This document shows, piece after piece, positions 19,736-27,933 of a stretch of 64,000 nucleotides of DNA (its first letter is position 1; the number at the start of each line of letters is the position of its first letter). Source of the stretch: Algisphaera agarilytica. GTDB lineage: Bacteria > Planctomycetota > Phycisphaerae > Phycisphaerales > Phycisphaeraceae. A program made the position numbers and the translations under genes. A model generated the notes under the pieces. It saw nothing but the letters and a program-made list of their open reading frames with translations. It was not told the origin of the DNA and did no database searches. The DNA lies in the NCBI RefSeq assembly GCF_014207595.1, contig NZ_JACHGY010000001.1, positions 558,001 to 622,000 of the forward strand, given 5' to 3'.

Positions 19736-19812
19736 TCTTCGGCGGTCGGGTACGATGGTCTTAGATCGATCTGCTCGATTTGCTTCTTCGTTTCACTCTC
19801 TCGGAGCCCGCA

Positions 19813-20115
19813 ATGGACATCCTCGTCAACGGCCGTCACCTGGAAATCACCGACCCCATCCGCGATTACACGCACGAGAAGGCCGGCAAGCTGTCGCGGT
19901 ATTTCGACCGCATCTCGAAGGTTGAGGTCGTGTTGACCCACAAGGACGCCCACTCCTACGACGTCGAGATGATCGCCCACGTGGACGGCCACGAACACTT
20001 TGTCTCCCACGGCACGCACGACGACGTCTACACCGCGATCGATACCGCCGAGTCCAAGCTCGCCCGCCAACTGACCGACCACAAGGACAAGCTGGTGCAC
20101 CGCAACCGGGGATGA
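19813..20115 (+). CDS. hpf: Ribosome hibernation promoting factor (short HPF/RaiA type)
   Basis: The 100-residue product matches the short HPF/YfiA family (95-115), which binds the 30S decoding region and promotes ribosome inactivation in stationary phase. The recognisable pattern is VNGRHLEITDPIRDYTHEKA (residues about 5-24), then LSRYFDRISKVEVVL and the C-terminal DDVYTAIDTAESKLARQLTD. The start is the ATG at 19813 with GGAG about 7 bases upstream; the frame reaches 19780 but that part lacks similarity. It precedes a PTS EIIA and an HPr gene, the same order (hpf, ptsN, then a HPr-type gene) found downstream of rpoN in many bacteria, although rpoN is not here. Confidence 0.94.
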   Translation: MDILVNGRHLEITDPIRDYTHEKAGKLSRYFDRISKVEVVLTHKDAHSYDVEMIAHVDGHEHFVSHGTHDDVYTAIDTAESKLARQLTDHKDKLVHRNRG

Positions 20116-20159
20116 TGCCTGAAACACTTGCGGCCCCGACGCCGGCCGATTCGGTTTGG

Positions 20160-20165
20160 TATAAC
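20160..20165 (+). promoter_or_regulatory. Candidate -10 box upstream of the EIIA gene
   Basis: TATAAC lies about 30 bases before the ATG at 20195, which would allow independent transcription of the PTS gene. The -35 region is not convincing. Confidence 0.3.
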
Positions 20166-20194
20166 GGGGCGTCCTTTTCCTCCCGAGACAGGTT

Positions 20195-20665
20195 ATGAAA
20201 CTTAGTGACTTTGTAATCTCCGACGCGATTCTCCCCGAGCTCAAGGCCGCCTCCCGCGACGAGGTCGTGGAAGAGCTGGTCGATGCCCTGATCGCCGCCG
20301 GTGCCGCCCCGGCCGACCTGAAAGACACGCTGATCGCCGAGATCCTCAAGCGTGAGAAGAACGGCTCGACCGGCTTCGGCAAGGGCGTGGCCATCCCCCA
20401 CGTCAAGCACGACCAGATCAAGAAGGTGGCCGCCGCCATCGGCATCAGCCAGACCGGCGTCGACTACAACGCGCTGGACAAGCAGCCCGTGTATTCGATC
20501 TTCATGCTGCTGTCCCCCGCCGACCAGCCCGACCAGCACCTGCACGCGATGGAGAACATCTTCGCGAACCTGCAGAACGACACCTTCCGCAGCTTCCTCC
20601 GCCAGGCCCAGGACCACGACGCGGTCACCACCCTGCTCGCCGAGGCCGACGCGAAGGAACTCTGA
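20195..20665 (+). CDS. ptsN: PTS EIIA domain protein, nitrogen-regulatory (PtsN) type
   Basis: The 156-residue cytoplasmic protein is a single mannitol/fructose-type EIIA domain, a phosphoryl acceptor from HPr. The active-site His69 lies in GFGKGVAIPHVKHD, preceded by ILKREKNGSTG, both classic for PtsN. KQPVYSIFMLLSPADQPDQH and the C-terminal AMENIFANLQ helix complete the fold. No membrane EIIBC gene is nearby, so it is more likely regulatory than a sugar transporter part. The neighbours hpf and HPr support the PtsN assignment. EI (ptsI/ptsP) is not in the window. The start is the first ATG, with a weak upstream GAGACAGG. Confidence 0.9.
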   Translation: MKLSDFVISDAILPELKAASRDEVVEELVDALIAAGAAPADLKDTLIAEILKREKNGSTGFGKGVAIPHVKHDQIKKVAAAIGISQTGVDYNALDKQPVYSIFMLLSPADQPDQHLHAMENIFANLQNDTFRSFLRQAQDHDAVTTLLAEADAKEL

Positions 20666-20670
20666 ATAAC

Positions 20671-20767
20671 AATTGGTGATTGTGTGATTTGGCGATTGGC
20701 CAAGCGACGCAATCCTTTTCGCCATCGCTTGCGTCTTCACAATCACTAAATCGCTAAATCGCCCAAT
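20671..20767. repeat. Imperfect palindromic GATT-type element (copy 2)
   Basis: The left arm AATTGGTGATTGTGTGATTT is mirrored by a right arm AATCACTAAATCGCTAAATC. The centre holds GCGACGCAATCC and, inverted, ATCGCTTGCGTC. It fills the ptsN-HPr gap and ends at the HPr start codon. It is related in design, though not identical, to the element at 15285-15398. Confidence 0.75.
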
Positions 20768-21038
20768 GTCCTCTGCTTCCGCCAACCTGACGATCAGTAA
20801 CCGCCTGGGCCTGCACGCCCGGCCGGCGATGTCGTTGGTGGATACCGCCAGCACATTCAGCAGCGACATCAAGATCGCCAAGGGGGCTCAGGTGGTGGAC
20901 GCCAAGAGCATCATGCAGCTCATGATGCTCGCCGCGACCAAGGGGACTGAACTGGTCGTCACCGCCGACGGCCCGGACGCCGACGACGCCATCGCCGCGA
21001 TCACCGCGCTGGTCAACTCCAAGTTCGACGAAGATTAA
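20766..21038 (+). CDS. Phosphocarrier protein HPr
   Basis: This 90-residue protein shows the HPr signature: NRLGLHARPAM with the phospho-accepting His17, and the regulatory-helix region DAKSIMQLMMLAATKG with Ser48, the position phosphorylated by HPr kinase in some phyla. It transfers phosphate from EI to EIIA proteins, here most likely to the PtsN-type EIIA encoded just upstream. Whether it serves a sugar PTS or only regulation cannot be told; absence of EII transporter genes favours regulation (NPr-like). No Shine-Dalgarno is visible, because the palindromic repeat ends at the start codon; a TAAATC hexamer from that repeat ends 5 bases before the ATG. Confidence 0.94.
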   Translation: MSSASANLTISNRLGLHARPAMSLVDTASTFSSDIKIAKGAQVVDAKSIMQLMMLAATKGTELVVTADGPDADDAIAAITALVNSKFDED

Positions 21039-21113: not shown

Positions 21114-22013
21114 TCAACCCCGCCCCTTACGCCAAGCCGCCGAAACCGGCCCGCTCACCGCGTACGCCACAAAACCACCCGCGATCGCGGGCTGGGGCCA
21201 GACCAACAGCAGCAGCAACACCACCACCGCCATCGCCACCGACAAAAACGGAGCCCGGCCGCGGACGTAGCGGTTCATCACGTGGACGTAGCGGAACCGG
21301 CTGACCATGGCCAGGGCACACAGCAGCGTCGCGCCCAGCAAGCCATAAGCCGCGAGCCCCGCGCCGAACGATTCGTTGTTGTTCGCCCAGATGTGTTGAT
21401 GCAGGAGCGCCAGCCCCGCCACGGCCCCCGCCGCCCCCGGGGAGGGAAGCCCATCAAACGACAGGTGCGAGCCGACCGTGGCGTCTTCCACCTCGATGTT
21501 GAAACGCGCCAGCCTCAGCCCCGCACAGGCGACGTAGATCGCGGCGACCGCCAAGCCCAGGCGATCGTAGAACGTGTCGCCGGTGTCGGAGAAGTAAGGC
21601 GCCTGGACACCGATGATCTGGACAAGGATGAACGCCGGGGCGACGCCGAAGGTGACCATGTCGGCCATCGAGTCGAGCTGCTCGCCCAACTCGCTGGTGC
21701 TGCGGGTCATCCGGGCGACCCGGCCGTCGAGCGCATCGGCGATCTGCCCGATGAAAATGAACATCGCGGCACAGGTCAACGGCGTCCAGTTGAACGCCAT
21801 GGGGGTGTCCATCGGCCGGGACGCCACAAACACCGCCATGAACCCGCACAAGAGGTTGCCCAACGTAAATAGGGTCGGGACCACCGCGATCGTCTTGCCG
21901 CGGAGGTTTCGCCGACGGGGCGAATCGTCGGAAGGCGAGGACTCCGCCATTTCCTCGGGGTCACCCGGGGCTGAGCCGTCTTCCGGAGTTGTTTCAGTCA
22001 TGCGAAAACCCAT
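21114..22013 (-). CDS. pssA: CDP-diacylglycerol-serine O-phosphatidyltransferase
   Basis: PssA joins CDP-diacylglycerol and serine to make phosphatidylserine in the membrane. The CDP-alcohol phosphotransferase motif is complete: DALDGRVARMTRSTSELGEQ continuing to LDSMADMVTFG (DGx2ARx8Gx3Dx3D). About seven hydrophobic segments follow VVPTLFTLGNLLCGFMAVF. Length from the ATG at 22013 is 299 residues, with a hydrophilic acidic leader of about 45 residues. The start is supported by a TAAAAT box ending 8 bases upstream; an ATG at 22001 is the alternative. The frame is open to 22256, but that part overlaps the divergent DUF2752 gene and is discarded. CdsA, which makes its substrate, is encoded at 43353-44222. 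Confidence 0.93.
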   Translation of the reverse strand: MGFRMTETTPEDGSAPGDPEEMAESSPSDDSPRRRNLRGKTIAVVPTLFTLGNLLCGFMAVFVASRPMDTPMAFNWTPLTCAAMFIFIGQIADALDGRVARMTRSTSELGEQLDSMADMVTFGVAPAFILVQIIGVQAPYFSDTGDTFYDRLGLAVAAIYVACAGLRLARFNIEVEDATVGSHLSFDGLPSPGAAGAVAGLALLHQHIWANNNESFGAGLAAYGLLGATLLCALAMVSRFRYVHVMNRYVRGRAPFLSVAMAVVVLLLLLVWPQPAIAGGFVAYAVSGPVSAAWRKGRG

Positions 22014-22073: not shown

Positions 22074-22571
22074 ATGGACTGCATGAATCAGGCGGTTACC
22101 CCCCCATCTCCCGTCCGGCCCGAACTGCCGACCCACCGGGTCCGTGAGGCCTCGTGGTCCGCTCGGTTGATCGCGTTGGTGATCTTTGCCCCGGCACTGG
22201 CGGTGCTGCTCACCGCCTCCTCGTTGACCGCCAACGACGAAGGCATCGGCACCCACACCCAGCTCGGACTGGCCCCCTGCGGGTTCAAATCCTCAACGGG
22301 CCTGCCGTGCGCTACCTGCGGGATGACCACCTCCTTCACCCACGCGGCCGACGGCCATCTGCTCACAGCCTTCGTCACCCAACCCGCCGGTGCGGTCCTA
22401 GCGGTGCTGACCGCCATGGTCGTTCTGGTCAGCGGCTGGTCGCTGGCGTCGGGCATGTCGCTTGTGCCGATCGGTATCGCGCTCTGGCGGCCCCGGGTCA
22501 TCATCACGATGATCGCGCTGATCCTGGGCGGTTGGCTGTACACCCTGATCAAGACCGCAGTGCTTCAATGA
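22074..22571 (+). CDS. DUF2752 membrane protein
   Basis: The 165-residue product has a DUF2752 core, LGLAPCGFKSSTGLPCATCG followed by MTTSF (residues about 68-92), the hallmark Cys-containing motif of this small membrane family. Hydrophobic helices flank it (LIALVIFAPALAVLLTA, AGAVLAVLTAMVVLVSGW, VIITMIALILGGWLYTLI). The function of DUF2752 is unknown. The ATG at 22074 (or 22083) is preferred over the TTG at 22071. Its stop overlaps the next start in an ATGA arrangement, so it is translationally coupled to the lipoprotein gene and appears to lead a five-gene operon. It is divergent from pssA with only 60 bases between the starts. Confidence 0.85.
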   Translation: MDCMNQAVTPPSPVRPELPTHRVREASWSARLIALVIFAPALAVLLTASSLTANDEGIGTHTQLGLAPCGFKSSTGLPCATCGMTTSFTHAADGHLLTAFVTQPAGAVLAVLTAMVVLVSGWSLASGMSLVPIGIALWRPRVIITMIALILGGWLYTLIKTAVLQ

Positions 22572-23302
22572 ATGTTCCGCAACGAGCCGTTGCTTTCCTT
22601 CCGAGCCTTTTCCTTATGCCGTACCTGCTTCCCCGCACCCACCGCACCACCCCACGGCCAAGTCGGGCCGGGCTGGTTACCTTGCTCATGCTCCCGCTTC
22701 TGCTAAGCGGGTGTAACTTCATCGCCTGGGGAGCCGCTGCGTCGCGTCCCGACGACGAGGCCACCGTCGAAGTCGCCGCGGAATACCTGGACCTCGTTGA
22801 TAAACGCGTGGCGGTGATGGTCTCGGCCGACGAGTACACATTGTTCCGTTTCCCCCGTGCCACCGATAATGTCGGGCAATCCGTGGGCAACGCGATCCAC
22901 GCCAACGTCGAAAACGCGGTCGTCTCGATCCCCCGCGAAGTCGCCCGCTACCAACGCAAGAACCCGTACTGGATCACCAGCCGCCCCAGCCGATTGATCG
23001 CCGACCTCGGCGTGGACCGACTGGTGGTGATCGACCTCAACGAATACCGCACCAACGAAGAAGGCAACTCCAGCGTCTGGCGTGGCGTCATCGACGGCAC
23101 CGTCACGGTGTACGAAGCCGACGGCGAAGACCCCGACAACGCCACCTTCCAGCGGCCGGTCCGGGCCGAGTACCCCGAGGGCGGCACTTTTGGTTTGGTC
23201 AGCGCCGACGCCGATCAGCACAAGATCGAGGCGGCCGCGCTCCAGCGTTTCACCCTCCGGGCGGCCGGCTTGTTTTACGACCACGAGGATGTGCCGCGAT
23301 GA
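22568..23302 (+). CDS. Lipoprotein, TolB-N/CsgG-like fold suspected (first of a pair)
   Basis: Starting at the ATG at 22568 (ATGA overlap with the DUF2752 gene) gives 244 residues; a second ATG at 22618 would give a more usual signal peptide. The hydrophobic segment LVTLLMLPLLLSGCNF ends in a good lipobox, so an outer-membrane-associated lipoprotein is likely. The mature part alternates strands and helices: KRVAVMVSADEYTLFRFP, SVGNAIHANVENAVVSIPRE, LIADLGVDRLVVIDLNEY. That pattern, an N-terminal 'vav' strand and a later 'lGvdrvv' strand, recalls CsgG/TolB-N-type lipoproteins, but this is only an inference. The next gene encodes a similarly built lipoprotein and overlaps by four bases. Confidence 0.7.
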   Translation: MNVPQRAVAFLPSLFLMPYLLPRTHRTTPRPSRAGLVTLLMLPLLLSGCNFIAWGAAASRPDDEATVEVAAEYLDLVDKRVAVMVSADEYTLFRFPRATDNVGQSVGNAIHANVENAVVSIPREVARYQRKNPYWITSRPSRLIADLGVDRLVVIDLNEYRTNEEGNSSVWRGVIDGTVTVYEADGEDPDNATFQRPVRAEYPEGGTFGLVSADADQHKIEAAALQRFTLRAAGLFYDHEDVPR

Positions 23303-23997
23303 AGACGCCCCCCCGCCGCCGATGGACTTGCCTGGCAGCGTTGCTGTCGCTCCCGATGATCATGGCTGTGCCGGCTTGTGAACAAGCGGCGGTTCTCGCC
23401 GAGGCCGTCAGTGGCCCGGAGAAGGTTGAGCCGTTGTACGTTCTGCCCGACGTTCCGACGCTTGTGATGGTGGACGACCCCAAGCACCTGCTGAGCAACC
23501 CCGGCCTGGCCCGGCAGATCGCGACCACCGCGATCCACTATCTCGAATTCCACGAAGCACTGCCCACGGCCCAATTCATCAAGCCCCGCGAACTAGCCAA
23601 GCTCGAAGCCGAGTTGGGCGACCGCTGGGCCTCGACACCGATCGATGAAGTCGGCCGACGCCTCGGGGCCGAGCAAGTCATCTACGCCAAGATCAACTCC
23701 GCGCAGTTTCACGTGGTGGACACGCTGTACCGCCCCGAAGCGTCGATCGAAGTGAAGATCATCGACGTGGCCGAGGGCAAACGATCCTGGCCCGAAGCCC
23801 CCGCGCTCATCGATCCGGAGAATGTGCCACCGGGCCACATGATCCAGATCAAAGACAACTACGAATCGCGGGACAGCCGATACGTGGGCGACTCCACGCC
23901 GGACGACTTGGCTCGACGCCTCGCCGACGACGCGGGGCTGCGATTGGCCCGGCTGTTTTACCAGTGGCAGAAAGACGCCCCGGGTGCCTCGCTTTGA
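23299..23997 (+). CDS. Lipoprotein, second of the pair
   Basis: The 232-residue product starts at an ATG that overlaps the previous stop (ATGA). It has a basic n-region, a hydrophobic core and a Cys (MAVPACEQ) consistent with a lipobox. As in the preceding protein there is an N-terminal strand (VPTLVMVDDPKHLLSNPG), a long helix, and a later VGRRLGAEQVIYAKINSAQF strand block, so the two may be distant paralogues that act together. EVKIIDVAEGKRSWPE resembles the strand pair seen in periplasmic component lipoproteins. No known domain can be named with confidence. The stop overlaps the probable TTG start of the glycosyltransferase. Confidence 0.68.
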   Translation: MKTPPRRRWTCLAALLSLPMIMAVPACEQAAVLAEAVSGPEKVEPLYVLPDVPTLVMVDDPKHLLSNPGLARQIATTAIHYLEFHEALPTAQFIKPRELAKLEAELGDRWASTPIDEVGRRLGAEQVIYAKINSAQFHVVDTLYRPEASIEVKIIDVAEGKRSWPEAPALIDPENVPPGHMIQIKDNYESRDSRYVGDSTPDDLARRLADDAGLRLARLFYQWQKDAPGASL

Positions 23998-25007
23998 CCA
24001 CCTCGTCCCACCCCCTCCACCTGATCGACCAGGCTTCGCCGCAAGCCCACCCCACCGCCTTGGCGTTAATCGCCAGCCGCGGTGAACCCGCGGTGCTGCT
24101 GGGCAACCAGCAACTCCAACATGCGGCCGAGGTCTCGGGTTTGGTTGACGCTACCTGCCTGCGCGTGCCCGCCGGTTCGGCAACCTGGGGACTGCCGGTG
24201 CTGCGGCAATTTCTTCGCGGAGTGGAGCCCGGGCGTGAGCTGCACGTCTGGTCACTGAGTTGCCTGACCGCGCTCAAACGCCTGGGACGTACCAGCTGCA
24301 CCGTGATGCATATGCTCACCCCGCTGACGCCACGCCAGCTCCAGCGGATGAAACGCCTCGATCGATCCACGCTCCGCTGGCTTGTGCCGGGGGAGTTGTT
24401 GCGCGAGCAGTTGATCGCCCAGGGTTTCACACCCGAACGCATCGGCCTTCAAACACTACCCACGCTTGAACAGGCTGGGGCCATGTTGCAACACGACCGC
24501 GCTTCGCTGCGTGAACGCTGGGGCGTGGATGATGAGATGCCCGTTGTGGCGTTGCTGAGTGATCCCCCCACCGCCGCTCAAGCCCCGTCGATGATGACCG
24601 GCCTGAACCTGGTCAGCCTCGCGGCCGACCGCCCCTTGCGTTTGCTGGTCCACCCCGAGCAGCACGGCCGTTCTCGTACGCAGACCCTGCTTGATCGCTA
24701 CGGCGAACCCGATCGTTTTATCCAAGACACGCAGATCGCCACCCCCTGGGCGGTGCTTCGCGGCTGCGATGCGGTGATGCTGAGCGAACAGCCCGCCCCG
24801 CTGAGCGTGCGCTACGCCTTGGCGGCGGGCCTGCCGGTGGTTGCACCCGATCTTCCCCTGCACCGCGAGGCCTTGGCCAAGGCGGCGGAGGGACAAGCCC
24901 ACTACGCCCTGACCGCCGAGCCCAAACGCATGGCCGACCGGTTGCAACACCGGGCGCTGGGCCTGCCCACCCACCGGTTTGCATACGGCTCGGCCCACGT
25001 GGGCTAG
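23994..25007 (+). CDS. GT-B-type glycosyltransferase-like protein
   Basis: From a TTG at 23994 (overlapping the previous stop as TTGA) the product has 337 residues; an in-frame GTG at 23964 is an alternative. The C-terminal half has the layout of a GT4-type domain: MPVVALLSDPPTAAQAPSMM, RPLRLLVHPEQHGRSRTQTL, then ATPWAVLRGCDAVMLSEQPA and SVRYALAAGLPVVAPDLPLH, which mimic the usual 'ad.fvlPS..E..g....EAma.G.PVva' strand-helix series. The critical Glu of the EX7E motif is not obvious, so activity is uncertain. No signal peptide is present. Its position inside the coupled lipoprotein operon points to a role in modifying envelope glycans or glycolipids. Confidence 0.65.
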   Translation: MTTSSHPLHLIDQASPQAHPTALALIASRGEPAVLLGNQQLQHAAEVSGLVDATCLRVPAGSATWGLPVLRQFLRGVEPGRELHVWSLSCLTALKRLGRTSCTVMHMLTPLTPRQLQRMKRLDRSTLRWLVPGELLREQLIAQGFTPERIGLQTLPTLEQAGAMLQHDRASLRERWGVDDEMPVVALLSDPPTAAQAPSMMTGLNLVSLAADRPLRLLVHPEQHGRSRTQTLLDRYGEPDRFIQDTQIATPWAVLRGCDAVMLSEQPAPLSVRYALAAGLPVVAPDLPLHREALAKAAEGQAHYALTAEPKRMADRLQHRALGLPTHRFAYGSAHVG

Positions 25008-25015
25008 ACTTCCCC

Positions 25016-25765
25016 ATCGACGAGCCCGCCCCACGACCCGCCGCCCCCACACCTCCATCACCAACCGAGCTCCCGCGCGACCTGCTCTGTGAGCGGTGCG
25101 GCTACGGCTTGTTCGGATTGCCTTTCGATTCGGTCTGCCCCGAGTGCGGTCAGGCCATCGCCGACTCGCTCCCCGAACACCGCAACGGGCCGGCGTGGCA
25201 GAATTCGCTGACCGCGAGGTCCTGGCTCGACACCGCCTGGTCGATCTTCGCCCGCCCCGGAATGACCTATCGACTTATGCGACTCGACGGCTCGGCGATG
25301 CCCGCCCGGCTGTTCCTGCTCAGCATGGCCGTGCTCGTGGGCGTGGGTTGGGGCGTCTTCTGCCTGCTGCTTGTCGGCTACAGCGGGCTGATGTCGTGGG
25401 GGGCGGGCATGGTCGCGGCCAAGACGGTCCTGATCATGACGTACATCGAGACGATCGGGGTCACGTTCTTCAGCCATCGCCGGGGCTGGCGGGTGCCGTT
25501 CGACTTGGCGGAGCGGGTGACCTGCTACGCGTCGGTGGGCTGGCTGGTCGCGGCCGTCGTGCTGGCCCCGCTGCTGAGCTGGTACGAGGCGGGCGGATTT
25601 CAGTATTGGGTGATCAAGATCGTCGGGCACTGGGAACCGGAGTACCGGTGGTTCCTCGCGGCCCTGGGATTCGGGGCGGCGGTGCTGTTTTTCGAGACCC
25701 GGGTCTGGTCCGGGGTCCGGCAGGTCCGGTTCGGCAACCGCCCTTCCGGGCATCCTCATGCTTGA
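25016..25765 (+). CDS. Zinc-ribbon membrane protein with a non-canonical start (AUC suspected)
   Basis: The only standard start in frame is a TTG at 25109, but the codons upstream clearly belong to the protein: they supply the first half of a zinc ribbon, CERCGYGLFGLPFDSVCPEC, whose first CxxC is encoded at 25088-25099. The frame between 25016 and 25109 has no ATG, GTG or TTG. An ATC at 25016, 8 bases after the preceding stop codon, gives a coherent 249-residue protein (Pro-rich linker, then zinc ribbon); a CTG at 25082 is possible. Four to five membrane helices follow (for example LFLLSMAVLVGVGWGVFCLL). YIP1-like topology is possible. Function is unknown. It is the last gene of the coupled envelope operon. 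Confidence 0.6.
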   Translation: MDEPAPRPAAPTPPSPTELPRDLLCERCGYGLFGLPFDSVCPECGQAIADSLPEHRNGPAWQNSLTARSWLDTAWSIFARPGMTYRLMRLDGSAMPARLFLLSMAVLVGVGWGVFCLLLVGYSGLMSWGAGMVAAKTVLIMTYIETIGVTFFSHRRGWRVPFDLAERVTCYASVGWLVAAVVLAPLLSWYEAGGFQYWVIKIVGHWEPEYRWFLAALGFGAAVLFFETRVWSGVRQVRFGNRPSGHPHA

Positions 25766-26277: not shown

Positions 26278-27933
26278 GTGATCCACTCCCAACTCCTGAC
26301 GCCTTCGCTCGCTGCGGTTTCTTTTCCCGTCACCCTCGGCAACACCGGGCTGGCTATCGGCATGCTCTTGCTCGGCCTGGTCCTGGGCGGCGTGGCGGCC
26401 TTTGTCATCCTCAAGCTCGTCGCGGGCAACGCCCTGGGCGCCGCCAAGCGCGAAGCCGACGACCTGCTGTCCAAAGCCAAGGCCGAGGGCGAAACCCTCG
26501 CCAAGCAGATCGAGCTCGACGCCCGCAACGAGCAGGCCAAGCGTCGTGAAACCTTCGAGAAAGAAACCGACTCGGCCCGTAACGAACTCAACGAAAAAGA
26601 ACGCCGCCTCACCAAACGGGAAGACAACCTCGACAAGAAGCTCGACACGCTGACCACCAAAGAGAAGTACCTCACCGAGATGGACAGCGATGTGAAGAAG
26701 GCCCAGGCCGCGATCGACGGCAAGCTCGCCGAGGCCGAGTCCCTGGTCGCCGAACGCCAGAAAGCCAACGCCCAGCACCAGGAAAACCTCAAGAACGACC
26801 TGCTCCGCATCGCCCACCTCTCCGAGGAAGACGCCAAGCGTGAAGCCATGACCGTCCTCGAGCAGCAGCTCACCCACGAGTCGGGCGAACTCATCAAACA
26901 GGTCACCGAACGCACCGAACACGAAGCCAAAGAGATCGCCCAGAAGATCACCCTCACCGCGATCCAGCGCTACGCCAGCGAGCACAGCGCCGAGTCGACC
27001 AGCAACTCCGTCGCCGTGGAAGACGACGCGATGAAGGGGCGGGTCATCGGCCGTGAGGGCCGCAACATCCGCGCCTTCGAGGCCGCCACCGGCGTCGACG
27101 TCGTGGTGGACGACACACCCGGCGTGGTCATCGTGTCCTGCTTCGACCCCGTCCGCCGGGCCGCCGCCGCGGAGACGCTGCGTCGCCTGCTCGAAGACGG
27201 CCGGATCCACCCCGCCCGCATCGAAGAACTCTCCAAGCAAGTCCTCGAAGAGTTCGAGAAGAAGATCGTGAAGTTCGGCCGGGACGCCTGCGAAGAGGCC
27301 CACATCCACGGCCTGCACCCCAAGATCTCCGAGATGATGGGCAAGCTGCACTACCGCACGTCCTACGGCCAGAATATCCTCCGCCACTCCCACGAGGTCG
27401 CCTACCTCTGCCAGGTCATCGCTGATGAACTCGGCCTCGACGGCGAACTCGCCCGCCGCTGCGGCTTCCTGCACGACATCGGCAAAGCAATGGACCACGA
27501 GATCGAAGGCGGCCACCCCAAGATCGGCGCCGACTTCTGCCGCAAGTACGGCGAGAACGAAGCGGTCCTCAACGCCATCGCAGGCCACCACAACGACATC
27601 CCCTCGACCACGCCCTACACCCCGATCGTCATGGCCGCCGACGCCATCAGCGGCGCCCGCACCGGGGCCCGCCGCGAGTCGCTCGAGAAATACGTCAAAC
27701 GGTTGCAAGACCTCGAGCAGATCGCCCGAGACCAGAGCGGCGTCCGCGAAGCATTCGCCATCCAGGCCGGCCGCGAGGTCCGCGTGGTGGTCGACCCCGA
27801 AGGCGTCCACGACGAGGCCTGCCACGCCATCGCCCGCAACATCGCCAAACGCGTCAGCGAAGAGATGACCTTCCCCGGTGAGATCAAGGTCACGGTCCTG
27901 CGCGAGATGCGCACGATCGAATATGCTCGATAA
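26278..27933 (+). CDS. rny: Ribonuclease Y
   Basis: RNase Y is a membrane-anchored endoribonuclease that starts bulk mRNA decay. The 551-residue protein shows the full architecture: an N-terminal transmembrane helix (residues about 24-45), a long charged coiled coil (about 55-220), a KH domain ([20 protein letters not shown] near 250-270) and an HD domain ([11 protein letters not shown] near 367-377, [11 protein letters not shown] near 398-408, AGHHND near 438). The start is a GTG at 26278 with AAAGGGG 5 bases upstream. Length is slightly more than the usual 520 because of a short N-terminal extension. The gene ends in a strong terminator and appears monocistronic. It implies RNase Y-based rather than solely RNase E-based mRNA turnover. 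Confidence 0.96.

Follow-up and report, generated by a model that had tools for sequence, protein, structure and literature searches.

Five genes follow one another on the forward strand between positions 22074 and 25765 of the window, by which we mean the whole 64,000-nucleotide stretch of Algisphaera agarilytica DNA that was analysed. The first gene (22074..22571) encodes a DUF2752 inner-membrane protein, as judged from its Pfam match, its conservation and its hydropathy and charge profile. It is followed by the gene for lipoprotein 1 (22568..23302), identified through its translation, its homologues, its AlphaFold2 model and the match of that model to PelC, and by that for lipoprotein 2 (23299..23997), a paralogue of the former according to its translation, a profile match and its own AlphaFold2 model. 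The fourth gene (23994..25007) specifies a member of the GT4 superfamily that, on the basis of its family profile and the residues at the Glu positions, is without the EX7E Glu pair and hence a probable pseudo-glycosyltransferase. The last gene (25016..25765) codes for an accessory, family-restricted protein with a zinc ribbon and multiple transmembrane segments. The overlaps of genes one to four that the initial annotation describes are present in the sequence: the stop codon of the DUF2752 gene and the start codon of lipoprotein 1 share an ATGA (22568..22571), the two lipoprotein genes share another (23299..23302), and the stop codon of lipoprotein 2 is joined to the TTG start codon of the GT-like gene in a TTGA (23994..23997). 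The strict co-translation that had been read from this spacing exceeds the data. In related loci, exact 4-base overlaps occur at 44 of 95 junctions between DUF2752 and lipoprotein 1, at 44 of 99 between the two lipoproteins, and at 46 of 86 between lipoprotein 2 and the GT-like gene, so that about half of the homologous junctions are without an overlap.

Our view of the conservation of this gene cluster relies on 101 loci: 20 diverse loci of 12-16 kb, 80 loci taken from a named collection of genomes (most carry Phycisphaerae or Planctomycetota in their titles, a few MAGs other labels) and the window itself. As all of them were picked by a match to lipoprotein 1, its presence is a precondition of every count given for the other genes. 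There were 95 assignments of DUF2752 and 99 of lipoprotein 2, and 87 loci contained a GT-like gene. The order DUF2752, lipoprotein 1, lipoprotein 2 and GT4-like gene on one strand is present in 82 of the 101 loci of the Phycisphaerae, and the neighbourhood proposed in the initial annotation consequently does recur in other genomes. Used as a single query, lipoprotein 1 retrieves relatives from 185 of 248 class genomes; lipoprotein 2 has relatives in 88 of 150 and DUF2752 is found in 145 of 150 class genomes, and a single-protein scan of the genome contigs with lipoprotein 2 gave no match. Since the four-gene order and the 4-base overlaps both recur, the arrangement is beyond chance, and the operon is real and conserved across the Phycisphaerae. 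Its flanking genes are lineage-specific, the commonest other family being present in 47 loci and mostly on the opposite strand. DUF2752 still adjoins a lipoprotein gene in several single-copy loci, and in Planctomycetia and in f85 it accompanies one or more lipoproteins in the absence of the GT-like gene.

The five-gene unit originally described is thus to be reduced to a recurring core of four. The fifth gene was seen only in the window and in two further genomes of its family, G001 and G133, a distribution that rules it out as a core member. Its reading frame contains no ATG, GTG or TTG between the upstream stop codon at 24692 and a TTG at 25109, which lies within the zinc ribbon. Near the expected start (25008-25115) only an ATC (25016) or a CTG (25082) is found in frame, and the 8-base gap reported to precede this gene requires the ATC at 25016 to be the start codon. 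Its relative in G133 (L037) has a normal, overlapping start; the oddity in the window is due either to an unusual start codon or to a minor error in the sequence.

The first gene was correctly named as coding for a DUF2752 membrane protein, its match to PF10825 scoring 43.8 bits against a Pfam gathering cut-off of 27. Over 95 homologues, R31, GTH (59-61), C69, C79, C82-G83, MTT (84-86), QP (103-104) and W154 are near-invariant. Hydropathy predicts three transmembrane helices at about residues 32-50, 107-125 and 142-160, and because positive charges are located before the first helix and between the second and the third, the positive-inside rule predicts that the intervening loop (51-106), with its GTHxQLG motif and three conserved cysteines (C69, C79, C82), faces the periplasm. 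A second type of DUF2752 protein in the phylum, which differs around the Cys motif (CPFHxLTGxxCPGCGSxRA and relatives; L190, L193-L204), has no lipoprotein neighbours. At least two contexts are combined in this Pfam family, and because such copies exist, DUF2752 by itself is no predictor of the system. The literature that we searched contained no paper on DUF2752.

Both lipoproteins possess a lipobox with an N-terminal Cys, LSGC with Cys49 in lipoprotein 1 and VPAC with Cys27 in lipoprotein 2, and the lipobox Cys is invariant in the alignments of both families. As neither carries an Asp at position +2, the sorting rule of E. coli would direct both of them to the outer membrane. Lipoprotein 1 is further marked by a conserved EYRxxxxGNxxxWxG hairpin. 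Pfam contains no dedicated model for the lipoprotein family. The suspicion that the two proteins are distant paralogues is borne out by a profile comparison (probability 99.8, E 3e-29, 204 columns), by BLASTP, which places them in one cluster, and by a tree of 95 sequences (SH-aLRT support from a quick search; rooted for drawing only). In this tree, lipoprotein 1 of the Phycisphaerae is found on one side of a branch with a support of 91, and lipoprotein 2 groups with single-copy proteins of f17, f19, f22 and f23. In the Planctomycetia family f48, the two lipoproteins fall into A and B clades that are sister to each other (95), and the two of f63 likewise pair up on their own. The simplest reading of these sequence relationships is that the lipoprotein was duplicated within the Phycisphaerae and that pairs arose separately in other Planctomycetota, which suggests that a two-subunit form was favoured more than once.

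AlphaFold2 models built on alignments of the window and the fetched sequences reached a mean pLDDT of 85.0 for lipoprotein 1 and 89.5 for lipoprotein 2. In a comparison with structures of the PDB, PelC ranked first or tied first for both models (lipoprotein 1: Z 12.7, rmsd 2.9 Å over 132 residues; lipoprotein 2: Z 9.9, rmsd 3.2 Å over 130 residues), followed by DUF330/PqiC, FlgT, Chlamydia CT253, GNA1162, TraT, LptE, CsgG and TolB; the LpoB domain was also among the matches. Both models have an alpha-beta sandwich core and their top PDB matches are all of the CsgG/TolB-N-like fold, as had been expected for this pair. This fold is common to proteins of many functions and sets the class of the lipoproteins, not their job. 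GNA1162 (structure 4hrv) matches the two models with Z 8.8 and 10.0; its family, PF05643, gives weak matches in 7 of 63 relatives of lipoprotein 2 (best E 3e-4) and none in the two window lipoproteins. Weak as they are, these sequence links are consistent with the structural matches. LptE is likewise a fold match, with Z up to about 9, but PF04390 does not match either window lipoprotein, and a separate PF04390 LptE is encoded elsewhere in the genome, at C1:704925. Consequently, the window lipoproteins are not simply the LptE of this bacterium. A literature search for CsgG in combination with DUF4810 found nothing.

The profile of the GT-like family matches MshA (E 4e-15) and BshA (E 7e-14), and Glyco_trans_1_4 matches 13 of 30 members, placing the family in the GT4 superfamily by sequence. 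MshA and BshA are retaining GT4 enzymes; the EX7E Glu pair is absent from the GT-like family. Where BshA and MshA have the second Glu of EX7E, the aligned family consensus has Trp, and the first Glu position is not conserved. A motif scan of 87 members gave 49 callable sequences, none of which has the second Glu and 32 of which have Trp; the window protein has Tyr. The lack of an obvious catalytic Glu pair, originally pointed out for the window protein, is hence a family-wide property. In G001, a genome of the same genus, the gene (L033:9350-9913) encodes the C-terminal half only (187 aa) and still overlaps lipoprotein 2. Given the lost Glu pair and this truncated form, the GT-like protein is probably not a classical GT4 enzyme; it is possible that it binds nucleotide sugars.

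Outside the Phycisphaerae, the class profile (A4) detects weak members of the lipoprotein family elsewhere in the phylum. With a broader profile (A7), the family is detected in 99 of 294 genomes from the phylum as a whole; a profile comparison (E 2e-20, 181 columns) identifies the deep members as the same family. In a group of loci (L178, L179, L183, L209, L212-L215, L220, L221 and L223) the lipoprotein gene follows one whose large product is about 900-1400 aa long (641 aa, partial, in L209) and in most cases has an N-terminal hydrophobic segment. In all of these loci but L220, and in L217 and L219 too, a tatA gene comes after the lipoprotein gene; a kdsC gene is found upstream in L179, L212, L213 and L221, accompanied by kdsD (SIS-CBS) in L179. 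For the names KdsC and KdsD we relied on domain matches and on the gene order kdsD-kdsC-lptC-lptA of E. coli. The large proteins of L183, L220 and L223 match LptD_N/LptA above the Pfam cut-off, and that of L220 also reaches the cut-off of LptC. The giants of L212-L215, L221 and L223 are mutually homologous; those of L178, L179 and L209 are tied to the LPS-transport group by position only. Such a giant LptA/LptC-like protein may be a one-protein Lpt bridge. The cluster found in L179, L212, L213 and L221, reads KdsC, giant LptA/LptC-like protein, lipoprotein, TatA and metallophosphoesterase. Elsewhere, RadA and/or a UDP-glucose/GDP-mannose dehydrogenase is encoded beside the lipoprotein (L182, L207, L208, L210, L218), and L211 combines both contexts in the order DUF2752, lipoprotein, lipoprotein, membrane protein, dehydrogenase. 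An ABC-2 permease is found near some deep copies (L183, L209). The likeness to the LptA/LptC system lies in the genes encoded beside the deep relatives, a connection to LPS transport that was not part of the initial annotation. A PF03968 search of the genome to which the window belongs gave no match, so that an LptA/C-like partner was not found there.

Assembly of envelope glycolipids or polysaccharides is the common thread of these contexts, with LPS transport as the strongest single link. Our preferred reading, to which we grant somewhat less than an even chance, is that the operon encodes an outer-membrane lipoprotein module for the export of LPS or glycolipid, docked by DUF2752. Its starting points are gene order, paralogy, fold class, predicted lipidation and the neighbours in other lineages, and from these we infer localisation, oligomeric state, contacts and substrate. 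The gene order is kept while the flanks change, the pairing of DUF2752 with the lipoprotein persists without the GT-like gene in Planctomycetia and f85, pairs of lipoproteins arose more than once, and the genes for LptD_N/LptA giants, KdsC/KdsD, TatA and sugar-nucleotide dehydrogenases accompany the deep copies. Furthermore, both models match PelC, PqiC/DUF330, FlgT, GNA1162 and CsgG, and two of these fold relatives form membrane-tethered rings, a 12-mer in the case of PelC (PMC12141448) and an 8-mer in that of PqiC (PMC10897342). The core of the module would be DUF2752 together with a lipoprotein of the CsgG/PelC/PqiC fold, duplicated in the Phycisphaerae. Lipoproteins 1 and 2 would assemble into a mixed oligomer or ring at the periplasmic face of the outer membrane, and the three-helix DUF2752 protein would be their docking partner in the inner membrane through its Cys/GTH loop. 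Together they would help to pass an LPS-type glycolipid on to, or insert it into, the outer membrane, a job that in deeper Planctomycetota would be shared with the giant bridge encoded beside the lipoprotein. The pseudo-GT4 might bind a nucleotide sugar or glycolipid as a cytoplasmic regulator or adaptor, not as a catalyst. Against this proposal stand the separate LptE, the missing PF03968 match in the genome, the versatility of the fold, the dependence of the predicted outer-membrane sorting on a rule from E. coli, the purely positional link of the giants of L178, L179 and L209, and the absence of Lpt, Pel and MCE genes from the operon itself in the Phycisphaerae.

A bolder version of this proposal, which we regard as doubtful, sees in these proteins an undescribed lipoprotein family that Planctomycetota would use as a dedicated outer-membrane acceptor of LPS or another glycolipid; in the Phycisphaerae, its two paralogues would combine into a hetero-oligomer docked to the DUF2752 inner-membrane protein. 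The acceptor would act alongside parts of the Lpt bridge or in their place, with the GT now a non-catalytic subunit. The fold and the general role are already known in kind; the family, its repeated duplication, its pairing with DUF2752 and the degenerate GT4 are undescribed in the literature searched. A transposon study found nearly all genes for lipid A synthesis to be essential in a planctomycete (PMC10632474), which makes a module of this type testable. The operon provides DUF2752 and the lipoprotein family with a conserved, testable set of partners in a class whose outer membrane has been little studied. The link to KdsC/KdsD and LptA/LptC-like proteins in the deep lineages makes it a concrete question which planctomycete proteins receive the LPS that arrives at the outer membrane, and likewise whether a trans-envelope system uses a duplicated lipoprotein ring.

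The prominence of PelC among the structural matches raises the question whether the lipoproteins instead provide an exopolysaccharide exporter with its periplasmic funnel, the GT being on the synthesis side. They share with PelC the N-terminal lipid anchor, and the frequent presence of the GT4-like gene would suit such a system. However, identity to PelC is about 11-12%, two paralogues are present here versus one, and the ring is hypothetical in our case. No PelB-type barrel or other pel gene is present among the neighbour families of the 101 loci, the neighbourhood shows no recurring PelB-like barrel, polymerase or deacetylase, the GT is without its Glu pair, and the Planctomycetia copies lack it altogether; we consider this reading unlikely. 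We assign an equally low probability to an auxiliary of phospholipid trafficking. PqiC anchors a trans-envelope carrier (PMC10897342), and the lipoproteins would tether an unidentified lipid carrier of this kind to the outer membrane. Structures of DUF330/PqiC, of the same fold, match lipoprotein 1 with Z 11.6 and 10.0, lipoproteins auxiliary to ABC systems match weakly by sequence, and the ABC-2 permease near L183 and L209 would fit. Nevertheless, no MCE protein and no Mla or Pqi gene is encoded in the operon or its flanks, and a Pfam search of the window proteins gave no PqiC/DUF330 match up to E 1.

Lower still do we rate a role in envelope integrity or cell-wall regulation, in which the lipoproteins would be structural or activating factors resembling LpoB or FlgT, and DUF2752 would sense metals or the redox state through its three Cys. 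LpoB and FlgT are indeed among the structural matches, and a conserved His joins these Cys in the predicted periplasmic loop, but no cell-wall or flagellar gene recurs nearby and the deep-lineage context points to LPS. That the genes are co-transcribed yet have unconnected functions, their order a matter of operon inertia, would agree with the junctions lacking overlaps and with the degenerate, sometimes truncated GT, but is improbable, as the order is kept between class-level lineages with reshuffled flanks and the DUF2752-lipoprotein pairing extends to Planctomycetia.

Because the flanks change with the clade, we read no function from their families, and this applies to the dipeptidase, ParA, AroB, MraZ, NuoA, GroEL and OGDH complex genes that we named by eye. 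Directly upstream of the operon lies a divergent gene resembling that of CDP-diacylglycerol-serine O-phosphatidyltransferase (21114-22000, minus strand; named by eye). This PssA-like arrangement recurs in a number of genomes from the window's family and nowhere else; with a divergent PssA adjoining the operon in five loci, we do not count it as part of the unit. Further upstream, a cluster (19780-21038) that by eye resembles genes for a ribosome hibernation factor, PTS EIIA-Ntr and HPr is common to the window, G001 and G074, and partly to G133. By eye, an RNase Y-like gene is situated near the DUF2752-lipoprotein genes both in the window (26278-27933), as a representative of its family, and in the Planctomycetia genome f98 (L175:5189-8932), where a YmdB-like gene lies between the two; this shared proximity is possibly an old synteny.
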